A stretch of 64,000 nucleotides of DNA from assembly GCF_003173615.1 (NCBI RefSeq), contig NZ_QGNA01000001.1:682001-746000 (forward strand). Reading direction: 5' to 3'. The position numbers and the translations under genes were made by a program. Positions within the stretch are counted from its first letter, which is position 1, and every line of letters begins with the position of its first letter. The notes under the pieces are model-generated. The model was not told where the DNA came from, did no database searches, and worked only from the letters and a program-made list of their open reading frames with translations. The DNA comes from Falsiroseomonas bella. GTDB taxonomy: Bacteria > Pseudomonadota > Alphaproteobacteria > Acetobacterales > Acetobacteraceae. Below are positions 41,522 to 44,492 of the stretch, piece by piece.

Positions 41522-42031
41522 TCAACCCGGCCGCCAGGCCCGGTGATAGGGATGGTTCTGCCGGATCGCCTGGGCGCGATACAGCTGCTCGGCCAGCATC
41601 CCGCGCACCAGGAAGTGCGGCCAGGTCATGGGCCCGAGCGAGATCCGGTGCTCCGAACGCGCCAGCACTGCTGGATCCAGCCCCTCCGCCCCGCCGATCA
41701 GGAAGGCCGGCGGGCGGCCGGCGCCGGCCCAGCGTTCCAGCAGCGCGGCGAAGGCCTCGCTGTCCGGCATCGGCCCGCCGAGGTCGAGCGCCACCGCCGT
41801 GCAGCCCTCCGGCAGGGCGGCGAGCAGCGCGGCGCCTTCGCGCCGGCGCACCTCGGCGGCGCTGCCGCGGGCCTCGGGGATCTCCACCACGACGGGCGCG
41901 GGGCGCAGCCGGGCGGCGTAGTGCTCGAACAGGGCGCGCTCCGGCCCGGGCTTGAGGCGCCCGACGGCCAGCAGCGTCGCGGGCCTATTCGTCGTCCTCC
42001 TCCGTCGCGGTCGAGCCGCCGGCGCCGTCAT
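41522..42031 (-). CDS. rlmH: 23S rRNA pseudouridine(1915)-N3 methyltransferase
   Basis: SPOUT-class methyltransferase, about 150-169 residues. [22 protein letters not shown] at the N-terminus and the AdoMet knot [14 protein letters not shown], then [24 protein letters not shown], are diagnostic. The only in-frame ATG (42031) adds an Arg-rich tail and makes a 47-nt overlap with rsfS. A GGAGGAGG lies inside that overlap close to the conserved core, so the real start could be a non-standard codon nearer LLAVGR. Standard neighbour of rsfS and nadD. Confidence 0.93.
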
Positions 42032-42470
42032 CGGGCAGCGGGGTACGGTCCTGCGGCGCGGCGGCGGCGGGGCTGTCGGGGCCCCACATGCGTTCCAGCG
42101 CGTAGAGGCGGCGGGCCTCCGGCTTGAACAGGTGGACCACCAGGTCGCCGGCGTCGATCAGCACCCAGTCCGGGCTGGCCTGGGTCGCGTCGCGGCGGAG
42201 CTTCAGCCCCTCCTTCTCGAAGGCGTCCTCCAGATGGCTGGCCATGGCCTGGATCTGCCGGTCGGCGAGGCCGGTGGCGATCACCAGGCGGTCGGCGTAG
42301 TCGGCGCGGCCGGTGACGTCGAGCACCACCACCTCCTCGGCCTTGTCGTCCTCCAGGCTCTTGCGGGCGGCTTCGACCAGGCGGTCGAGCAGGGCAGGCT
42401 GGATCTTCGGCTTGCGGGACCGCGGCGCGCGCGCCGGACGCGGCGCGGCGGCCTTCGCGGAAGGCTTCAC
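41985..42470 (-). CDS. rsfS: Ribosome silencing factor RsfS
   Basis: Binds ribosomal protein uL14 and blocks subunit joining in slow growth. The conserved core ([25 protein letters not shown], then [28 protein letters not shown]) is complete. GTG at 42470 is the first standard start codon and gives 161 residues, but has no ribosome site. The frame stays open for a further 129 codons upstream (42471-42857), Ala/Lys/Pro-rich, ending at an ATA preceded by AGGAGG; the true protein may be 290 residues. An acidic C-terminal tail (ATEEDDE) is notable. Confidence 0.93.
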
Positions 42471-42857
42471 GGCAGGCTTGGCCGTGGCGCGCGACTTGGC
42501 GGCCGTCGTCTTCGGCGCCGGTGCCTTCGCGGCAGGCGTGGCGGCCTTCTTCGCGGACGACCTGGCCGGGGCCTTTGCCGTGCTGGCCCTGGCCGACGCA
42601 GCGGACGTCTTCGCCGCCGGCCTGGCCGGAGCCTTCGCCGTAGTGGCCCGTGTCGTACCGGCCTTCGCGGGCGCGGCGGACTTCTTCGCCGGCGACCTGG
42701 ACGGGGCCTTCGTCGTGCCCGCTTTCGTCGTGCCGTCCTTCGCCGGGGCGGCGGCCTTTGCCGCCGGGGTCTTCGGCTTCGCCGGGGCCGCCTTGGCGGG
42801 CGCGCGACGCGACGCGGGCTTGAGTGTGTCCGGACTTGCCTTGGGCGCGCGGGCTAT
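42471..42857 (-). other. In-frame Ala/Lys/Pro-rich extension of rsfS with probable ATA start
   Basis: Reads in the rsfS frame without a stop as ARAPKASPDTLKPASRRAPA..., followed by repeated PAKA, AAK, TTKAP units resembling histone H1-like or AlgP-like C-terminal tails. No ATG, GTG or TTG occurs in this frame. The first sense codons follow an in-frame TAG at 42867-42869. ATA at 42855-42857 lies 5 nt after a perfect AGGAGG. The composition contrasts with every other reading frame here, so it is probably translated. Confidence 0.6.
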
Positions 42858-42862
42858 CTCCG

Positions 42863-42868
42863 CCTCCT
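42863..42868 (-). promoter_or_regulatory. Shine-Dalgarno AGGAGG before the candidate ATA start of rsfS
   Basis: Minus-strand AGGAGG with a 5-nt spacer to ATA at 42857. No comparable site exists before the GTG at 42470. Confidence 0.6.
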
Positions 42869-42886
42869 ATCGATCTGCCTCTGCCC

Positions 42887-43591
42887 TCACCTAGCAGCCG
42901 GCGCCGCCGCCTGCATCCGCGGCGATGGCATGGCGCGGCGCATTGCGGCCGGGCGTGGCGCGGGCGCACGCGAGGGCGCCCGGGCCGCGGCGGCACGGAT
43001 GGCGGTGGCCGAGGCCGGGTGCTCTGCGGCCGGCACGAAGGCCCAAGGCGCATGAGAAGAGGGCGCATGGGCGGGCGGCGGGCCGGCGAGCAGCGCGCCC
43101 GGGCGACGCCGATGCCGCGCCAGCCGCTTCGCAGCCTTCGAGGCCAACGCCTTCCGCGTCCAGCGGGGCCGCGGCAGCACGGCGATCGGCGTGCGCGCGG
43201 CCAGCCGGGTCCAACCCTGCCAGCGTGGCAGCTGCACCAGGTTGTCCGCGCCGATCACGAAGACGAAGCGGCTGCGGGGGAAGCGGCGATGCAGCTCCCG
43301 CAGCGTGTCCTGGGTGTAGCGCGTGCCGAGCCTTGCCTCGATGTCGGTGGCGATGATGCGCCGCCCATCGGCGATGGCGCGCGCGGAAGCCAGCCGGTCG
43401 GCCAGCGGCGCCATGCCGGCGCGGGGCTTCAGCGGGTTGCCGGGGGAGACCATCAGCCAGATCTCGTCCAGCCGGAGCGCGCGCCGCACCCGCTCCGCAA
43501 CGTGGCGATGGCCGGCATGCGCGGGATTGAAGCTGCCGCCGAGCAGCCCGATGCGGCGCCGGCGCCGGTCGCCGCGGTGGTTGGGTGTCAC
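42887..43591 (-). CDS. nadD: Nicotinate-nucleotide adenylyltransferase
   Basis: NAD biosynthesis enzyme, 234 residues. The HxGH nucleotidyltransferase motif is in IGLLGGSFNPAHAGHRHVAE, and IGADNLVQLPRW carries the second conserved region. The GTG at 43591 is chosen as the last standard start before the motif; it lacks a clear ribosome site. The C-terminal 35 residues are Ala/Arg/Pro-rich and lie beyond the usual fold. It ends 29 nt before the candidate rsfS ATA. Confidence 0.94.
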   Translation of the reverse strand: MTPNHRGDRRRRRIGLLGGSFNPAHAGHRHVAERVRRALRLDEIWLMVSPGNPLKPRAGMAPLADRLASARAIADGRRIIATDIEARLGTRYTQDTLRELHRRFPRSRFVFVIGADNLVQLPRWQGWTRLAARTPIAVLPRPRWTRKALASKAAKRLARHRRRPGALLAGPPPAHAPSSHAPWAFVPAAEHPASATAIRAAAARAPSRAPAPRPAAMRRAMPSPRMQAAAPAAR

Positions 43592-43628
43592 GCCAGGATG
43601 CCTGGGCGCGGCAAAGGCACAAGAAAAC

Positions 43629-44492
43629 TCAACGGAAGCGGACGTCCACATGCACGGGCTGCGCGACCAGCCCGTCATAGGTCACGCGATAGCTGCGCCC
43701 CGCCTCCGGCCGCACCGGGGCGGAGAAGCCGCCGAGCGAGACATACTCCCCCGCGCGCAGCGGACGGCCCCGCGACTTCAGGTCGGCCACCAGCCAGGCC
43801 AGCGCGTTCATCGGCTGGCCCAGGATGGCGCGGCCCGGCGCACGTGCGATCTCCCGCGTGTCGTCGGAAAGGATCACCGTCATCGCGGCGAGGCGAGCGG
43901 CGAAATCGGGCGTCGCCTCGGCCGGGATGGGCGTGCCGAGCACGCCGAGCCGCGCGCCGACATTGATCGCGACGATCATCGGCGCATTCCAGGGCGCGTC
44001 GGGCGGATAGACGAGGTCGGCCAGCTCGATAAAGGGGATCACGCTCTCGACATGGCGCAGCAGCGCCACCGGGTCGTCGCCGGCGGTGTTCACGCCCTCG
44101 TCGCGGATGCGGACCAGCAGGTCGCTCTCGACGATCGGCAGGATGCCGAAATTCGCCGGCAGCTCGGCGCCCGAGCTTTCGCGGATGGTGCCGTGGAAGA
44201 TCGCGCCGGCCACCGGGTGGTTCACGCCGAAGCGGCCCTGGATGACCGGGTTGGTCAGCCCGACCTTCCAGCCGACCTGGTCGCCGAAGGGCTGCGCGAG
44301 CACCGCCACGAACCGGTCCTGCGCGCAGAGCGCATCGGCCATGGAGAGGTCCGGGTAGAGCGGCGGCGGCGGCGGCGCGCTGCGGTCCAGGAAGGCGCGG
44401 GCGAAGCGCGCCACCTCGGGCACCGAGGGGCAGGCCGCGAAGGCCACGCCCGGCAGCAGCGCGAGGCAGAGGGCAGCGAGGATGGGGCGCAT
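43629..44492 (-). CDS. Signal-peptide-bearing 2-keto-4-pentenoate hydratase (MhpD/FAH-like) protein
   Basis: 287 residues. A clear signal peptide (MRPILAALCLALLPGVAFA) is followed by a fumarylacetoacetate-hydrolase/MhpD fold: VGWKVGLTNPVIQGRFGV, IVESDLLVRI, and INVGARLGVLGTPI with Asn-Ala-Leu-Ala-Trp-Leu (NALAWLVADL). Hydratases of this family are normally cytoplasmic and act on 2-hydroxypenta-2,4-dienoate, so export is unusual. Metal-binding Glu residues appear in ESD and in ELADLV. Function in the periplasm is unknown. Confidence 0.82.
   Translation of the reverse strand: MRPILAALCLALLPGVAFAACPSVPEVARFARAFLDRSAPPPPPLYPDLSMADALCAQDRFVAVLAQPFGDQVGWKVGLTNPVIQGRFGVNHPVAGAIFHGTIRESSGAELPANFGILPIVESDLLVRIRDEGVNTAGDDPVALLRHVESVIPFIELADLVYPPDAPWNAPMIVAINVGARLGVLGTPIPAEATPDFAARLAAMTVILSDDTREIARAPGRAILGQPMNALAWLVADLKSRGRPLRAGEYVSLGGFSAPVRPEAGRSYRVTYDGLVAQPVHVDVRFR

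Follow-up and report, generated by a model that had tools for sequence, protein, structure and literature searches.

The closest described counterpart of the start codon discussed here is that of infC, which begins with ATT in Escherichia coli and with ATC in Streptomyces and is autoregulated by IF3 (PMC5472188), and which begins with AUA in Staphylococcus aureus (PMC13009471). Few bacterial genes with start codons rejected by IF3 have been characterised (PMC5472188). In Streptomyces, sigR has a GTC start that is repressed by IF3, the codon being GTC in 32 of 34 cases and GTT in 2 (PMC5472188). Non-canonical starts are also used by E. coli pcnB (AUU) and by S. aureus cvfC1/ccpN (AUU/AUA) (PMC13009471), and ribosome profiling of Caulobacter assigned 0.7% of starts to CTG and 0.25% to other near-cognate codons (PMC4117421). 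RsfS is an anti-association factor of the 50S subunit that binds through uL14 (PMC7125091), and its gene in E. coli starts at UUG (PMC10917681).

With these systems we compared the rsfS locus of Falsiroseomonas bella (Roseomonadaceae, Acetobacterales, Alphaproteobacteria in the NCBI taxonomy), whose closest named relatives among the matches listed were Roseomonas and Falsiroseomonas. The locus lies on the minus strand of the window, that is, the whole stretch of 64,000 nucleotides that was analysed (Table 1). The protein matched both RsfS profiles well above their cut-offs (TIGR00090, 97.1 bits against 56.9; PF02410, 91.6 bits against 21.6), and the gene stands between nadD upstream and rlmH downstream, two genes that are also near rsfS in E. 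coli, where cobC sits between rsfS and nadD. The nadD stop and the ATA are 29 nt apart, and the longest rlmH frame overlaps the end of rsfS, its true start being uncertain.

The preliminary description of this DNA had pointed out that the rsfS frame stays open for 129 codons upstream of the GTG at 42470 as far as the TAG at 42867–42869, that a perfect AGGAGG stands 5 nt before an in-frame ATA at 42855–42857, and that no ATG, GTG or TTG lies between that TAG and the GTG, which itself has no visible Shine-Dalgarno sequence; the sequence bore out all of this. Between the ATA and the GTG beginning at 42470 there are 129 codons, and this GTG is the sole ATG, GTG or TTG from the upstream TAG to the RsfS domain. 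Since the TAG is in the rsfS frame, in-frame translation coming from upstream is excluded. Read from the ATA, the frame has 290 codons and closes at TAG 41985–41987. Taken alone, the AGGAGG-ATA site is not beyond chance, as the window holds two copies of AGGAGG-N5-ATH (ATH being ATA, ATC or ATT) where 0.56 would be expected, and a count of two was reached in 11 of 100 shuffles; it is the conservation in relatives that argues for its reality. Across seven neighbouring gene ranges of the window ATC was counted 88 times, ATT once and ATA not at all. The rsfS sequence in the window's own assembly is identical and so gives no independent reading.

Table 1 Features of the rsfS locus in the Falsiroseomonas bella window (positions are those of the window)
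Feature	Position	Strand	Basis or remark
ATA start codon of rsfS (inferred)	42855..42857	-	letters read; relatives with ATA/ATC/ATT
Shine-Dalgarno AGGAGG	42863..42868	-	5 nt ahead of the ATA
TAG in the rsfS frame, overlapping the AGGAGG	42867..42869	-	sequence read
Basic Ala/Lys/Pro tail of RsfS, 157 residues	42387..42857	-	composition, dN/dS of relatives, low pLDDT
RsfS domain, TIGR00090 match to residues 161-258 of the ATA-initiated protein	42084..42377	-	PF02410 and TIGR00090 profiles
RsfS C-terminal segment, acidic stretch at the end plus stop TAG	41985..42083	-	pLDDT 39-44 (residues 261-290)
GTG, first standard in-frame start of rsfS	42468..42470	-	without visible Shine-Dalgarno
nadD, longest ORF, upstream neighbour	42887..43678	-	NF000843, 250.3 bits, residues 36-237
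rlmH, longest ORF, downstream neighbour	41522..42031	-	PF02590; NF000989 below cut-off

In what follows, Acetobacterales denotes genomes of the same family, and the class genomes of the same class, as defined in the search tool. Matches were found in 274 of 299 Acetobacterales genomes; loci were taken from the best 30, with a further set from the best 80 of 164, and because only the best loci were taken the sample tilts to near relatives and is not even. It held 108 distinct rsfS loci; a contig end truncated 18 of them, the start rule left 4 unresolved (L020, L090, L170 and L171), and 86 were kept. The start was assigned as ATA in 38 of these, ATC in 34, ATT in 1 and ATG in 13, with GTG or TTG in none of the 86, under a rule that is partly circular since it also requires a residue pattern observed in relatives; the per-codon rates and the tests on 135 further loci given below do without this pattern. 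A search of relatives for ATG at this position, proposed in the preliminary description, thus found it in a minority, with ATH behind a Shine-Dalgarno sequence in 73 of the 86. The ATG cases include Roseococcus, Sabulicella, Rubritepida, the group around Roseomonas rosea and Rhodovarius, and show that some lineages can do without the weak start; the ATH genera include Falsiroseomonas, Siccirubricoccus, Belnapia, Gluconobacter, Komagataeibacter and Rhodopila.

The arrangement in the relatives is a Shine-Dalgarno sequence, about 5 bases, ATH, and then codons for Ala-Arg-x-Pro-Lys or, in some, Thr-Lys. The Shine-Dalgarno match in the 73 ATH loci was 6 nt long in 43, 5 nt in 24 and 4 nt in 6, so that a strong match of 5 or 6 nt was found in 67, and the spacing to the ATH was 5–8. 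No standard in-frame start lay ahead of the site in 32 of the 73. On this comparison rsfS of the window very probably starts at the ATA.

Several tests distinguished the ATH site from an ordinary codon. ATA made up 6 of 711 Ile codons within rsfS domains against 38 of the 73 ATH codons at the start site (p about 1e-58, with relatedness ignored). When all in-frame codons upstream of the RsfS domain were scored for a Shine-Dalgarno match of at least 5 nt, the rates in Acetobacterales were 38/57 for ATA, 36/177 for ATC, 13/110 for ATG and 579/22325 for other codons, and those in the rest of the class were 23/71 for ATA, 12/80 for ATT, 24/171 for CTG, 16/140 for ATC, 12/131 for ATG and 246/8153 for other codons, CTG being included in this last figure too. 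Taking only the strongest Shine-Dalgarno site of each locus ranked ATA first in the rest of the class (9 of 97); in Acetobacterales ATH did not stand out in this way (GCC 35, ATC 1, n=104), probably because the long GC-rich frames hold many chance matches. For a tree of rsfS, L020 and L090, which read as ATG by eye, were added as ATG (15 of 88 rows), and parsimony gave at least 8 changes between ATA and ATC against 3 between ATH and ATG, rough counts, since no row of the tree contributed more than 330 bases. A change from ATA to ATG is a transition and one from ATA to ATC a transversion. The excess of ATA/ATC changes is the opposite of what mutation alone would give, and selection therefore seems to avoid ATG at the rsfS start.

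A further search matched 136 genomes, of which all but G175, G383, G401, G424 and G427 were used. The remaining families of the class were represented by 135 distinct rsfS loci, and the analysis was confined to the 45 codons ahead of the domain. In 51 loci, ATA, CTG, ATC or ATT followed a Shine-Dalgarno match of 5 nt or longer while no standard start had one of at least 4 nt (ATA 20, CTG 13, ATC 11, ATT 7), and 13 of these had no ATG, GTG or TTG in the whole open frame before the domain. A match of at least 4 nt stood only before ATG, GTG or TTG in 21 loci, both kinds of site were present in 8, and neither in 55. In total 59 of the 135 had one of the four codons behind a match of at least 5 nt, whereas 256 randomly drawn sets of four other codons averaged 7.5 loci and never exceeded 19. 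A looser sorting of the same loci with no distance limit (18 without an in-frame standard start, ATH/CTG site better in 60, standard site best in 36, no site in 21) was replaced because some of the 60 sites were far upstream.

In several lineages of the class CTG was the best start candidate, with a Shine-Dalgarno match of 6 to 8 nt (L145, L147, L156, L184, L233, L243, L256 and L260), and CUG thus seems to be part of the same start class. Outside the class the picture was different. Of 30 loci the 28 new ones were examined, 9 of which belong to the window's class. Judged by eye, the other 19 probably start at ATG (15 loci) or TTG (3), the start of L327 being unclear; L337, read as ATG, has a stronger Shine-Dalgarno site before an ATT. 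The rsfS of E. coli begins with TTG. The comparison points to an ATA/ATC/ATT/CTG start of rsfS as a feature of many families of the class, where the preliminary description had seen an oddity of a single genome.

The same approach was applied to infC and, as a control, to frr. In each of the 31 Acetobacterales infC loci examined, the window's genome among them, a Shine-Dalgarno match of 5 to 7 nt precedes ATA (25), CTG (4) or ATC (2), and across the class 26 of 30 were classed as non-standard. For frr, 24 of 30 loci were standard, 5 had no Shine-Dalgarno sequence and 1 had a longer match before ATC. The method therefore recovers the expected non-AUG starts and gives almost none in frr. In the window's own genome infC has an ATA behind AGGAG (L312, G000:C8:487419-488919, minus strand, ATA at 638-640), in a context that closely resembles that of the rsfS ATA; an in-frame ATG five codons past this ATA has an equally long Shine-Dalgarno match, for which reason the locus (L394) was classed as standard, the one infC locus so classed, and other Acetobacterales infC loci keep the conserved start site in the same place.

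By sequence comparison rsfS appears to share with infC a start other than AUG, GUG or UUG (ATA in the window) behind a strong Shine-Dalgarno sequence, the ATA/ATC/ATT/CTG class being kept while its letters change. The weak start is retained among relatives apart from the 13 of 86 loci with ATG and the 21 of 135 with a standard site only. The products of both genes hold ribosomal subunits apart; unlike IF3, RsfS comes from another gene and acts on the other subunit, the 50S, through uL14 (PMC7125091). The ATA of the window is very probably one case of a conserved, infC-like start class in rsfS of Alphaproteobacteria, and the earlier suggestion that such a start could tune expression is well supported by the comparison, namely by the ATH loci and the likeness to infC.

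The reading that we favour, with a probability of about 0.7, is that rsfS is translated from the ATA, that the weak start has been selected, and that synthesis is held down by a codon which IF3 rejects, as in infC. A strong Shine-Dalgarno sequence would recruit the 30S subunit to rsfS, the initiator tRNA would mispair at the non-AUG codon, and IF3 would reject most of the resulting initiation complexes, so that little RsfS is made; the product would be an RsfS of 290 residues whose N-terminal tail is basic and disordered. Its output would be tied to the supply of IF3, as for infC, and would rise if IF3 were short relative to 30S subunits or if initiation complexes were longer-lived. The weak start is thus probably a deliberate brake on RsfS production. 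The comparisons themselves establish the position of the site, its conservation, its codon class, its likeness to infC and a constraint on the tail of the kind seen in translated proteins. We infer initiation with fMet at the ATA, repression by IF3 and, as the purpose, that the two subunit anti-association factors, IF3 on the 30S and RsfS on the 50S, are matched to each other. In an E. coli rimM mutant IF3 and RsfS are both reported to be raised, and the two have been proposed to hold back premature subunit joining jointly (PMC13246957, 2026).

A bolder version, which we hold only tentatively and think doubtful, is that in Alphaproteobacteria one start-codon brake governs both IF3 and RsfS and that RsfS also represses its own synthesis. 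To our knowledge RsfS does not discriminate start codons, and any autoregulation would have to take another route. RsfS slows the joining of the 50S subunit, and initiation complexes waiting at AUH or CUG would be the likeliest to fall apart, so RsfS might repress itself in a loop that resembles IF3 autoregulation while operating from the 50S side.

Among the competing explanations, the one that survives best, though we judge it unlikely, takes the ATH as a real but merely weak start that fixes RsfS at a low level with no control by IF3 or feedback. In S. aureus reporters, non-canonical starts gave about 10% of the AUG level in poor medium and, for one gene in rich medium, up to 30% (PMC13009471), and E. 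coli rsfS itself uses a minor start, UUG (PMC10917681), which lies outside the codon class rejected by IF3 (PMC5472188). A fixed low level could, however, be reached with GTG, TTG or a weaker Shine-Dalgarno sequence, and neither GTG nor TTG was assigned in any of the 86 resolved Acetobacterales loci; the combination of an ATH codon with a 5- or 6-nt Shine-Dalgarno match is the infC signature.

Whether the region between the ATA and the GTG is translated bears on a second alternative, in which the internal GTG is the true start of RsfS and the Ala/Lys/Pro frame ahead of it is an untranslated leader or open by chance. The GTG is a standard start 20 codons ahead of the region matching relatives. 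PDB chain 28ye_G, a solved RsfS of 152 residues that closely resembles the Gluconobacter and Komagataeibacter proteins, begins just ahead of the motif GTPRKKAAAAGP, which several relatives have close to where the tail ends, and looks as if it came from an internal start. Against this, dS exceeded dN over the RsfS tails in all 18 pairs compared, which overlap, with extremes from dN 0.075 and dS 0.528 (L008/L010) to a weakest case of dN 0.503 and dS 0.67, the domain being under more constraint than the tail; 8 aligned RsfS proteins agree without exception at I1, A2, R3, P5 and K6 of the start peptide; and the Shine-Dalgarno sequence is conserved at its spacing before the ATH. The substitution pattern and the conserved start peptide disfavour an untranslated leader, and we consider initiation at the internal GTG very improbable. 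The last alternative, that the ATA is a recent mutation or a sequencing error of ATG, has in its favour the ATG at the site in 13 of 86 Acetobacterales relatives, and is contradicted, to the point of being ruled out, by the other 73, which come from many assemblies and all have an ATH codon there.

Translation from the ATA would give RsfS a tail that looks translated, from the comparison of relatives, and in the structural model looks disordered. Its 157 residues comprise A 54, K 25, P 24, T 16, R 13 and S 13 (145 of 157), with 38 K+R and 2 D+E, in keeping with the composition given in the preliminary description. In a model built from eight sequences, pLDDT was 43–54 per 10-residue block over residues 1–150, no secondary structure was predicted ahead of residue 154, and most of the domain reached 63–79; the mean over the whole model was 56.8. 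The basic, disordered segment proposed earlier is consistent with these values together with the dS excess; the tethering to rRNA or the nucleoid proposed with it would be a putative further role. The term histone-H1-like fits in part: the composition agrees, but at E 0.001 Pfam and NCBIfam listed RsfS alone for the protein of 290 residues and no histone H1 family, and the likeness is one of composition only. In the 86 resolved Acetobacterales loci, start and domain are separated by 14 to 370 codons. RsfS of E. coli has the same domain (PF02410, TIGR00090), to which solved RsfS chains were also matched, but a TTG start and no tail, in contrast to the ATA start and 157-residue basic tail in Falsiroseomonas bella.

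Compared with the other described cases, rsfS is like sigR in being a gene other than infC with a conserved non-canonical start and a strong Shine-Dalgarno sequence, IF3 control having been shown for sigR; the sigR start is limited to Streptomyces, whereas that of rsfS would extend across many families of a class and several codons. With pcnB and cvfC1/ccpN it would share an expression-limiting non-canonical start, but their products are unrelated to RsfS and have no tie to ribosome subunit joining. Among the matches listed, open-access titles and abstract openings reported no non-AUG start of rsfS beyond the UUG of E. coli, and the gene list of the Caulobacter profiling study (PMC4117421) could include rsfS. 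If our reading is true, a further gene with an infC-like start, present in many families, encodes the other subunit anti-association factor, and ribosome silencing and initiation fidelity would be wired together through codon choice. Gene callers accept ATG, GTG and TTG only, so RsfS would then be annotated too short in many genomes of the class.

Three smaller observations concern the surroundings of these starts. The pattern GGAG-N4-8-ATA-NCCCGC occurs at three places in the window's whole genome, the rsfS site and two others with GGAG and ATA-GCC-CGC (G000:C1:53025-53045 and G000:C12:205707-205726; L401 and L403), which may be further non-AUG starts or chance; the infC site of this genome does not fit the pattern. 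For the downstream neighbour rlmH no start stands out close to the conserved N-terminus, the in-frame ATG at 42031 falling within rsfS, and in a crude test 17 of 90 relatives had no standard rlmH start in the stretch checked. Finally, Lys/Ala-rich tails also precede RsfS in other families of the class (L138, L251, L284, L287 and L288), some with ATG or GTG candidates, so that tail and weak start may be separable.
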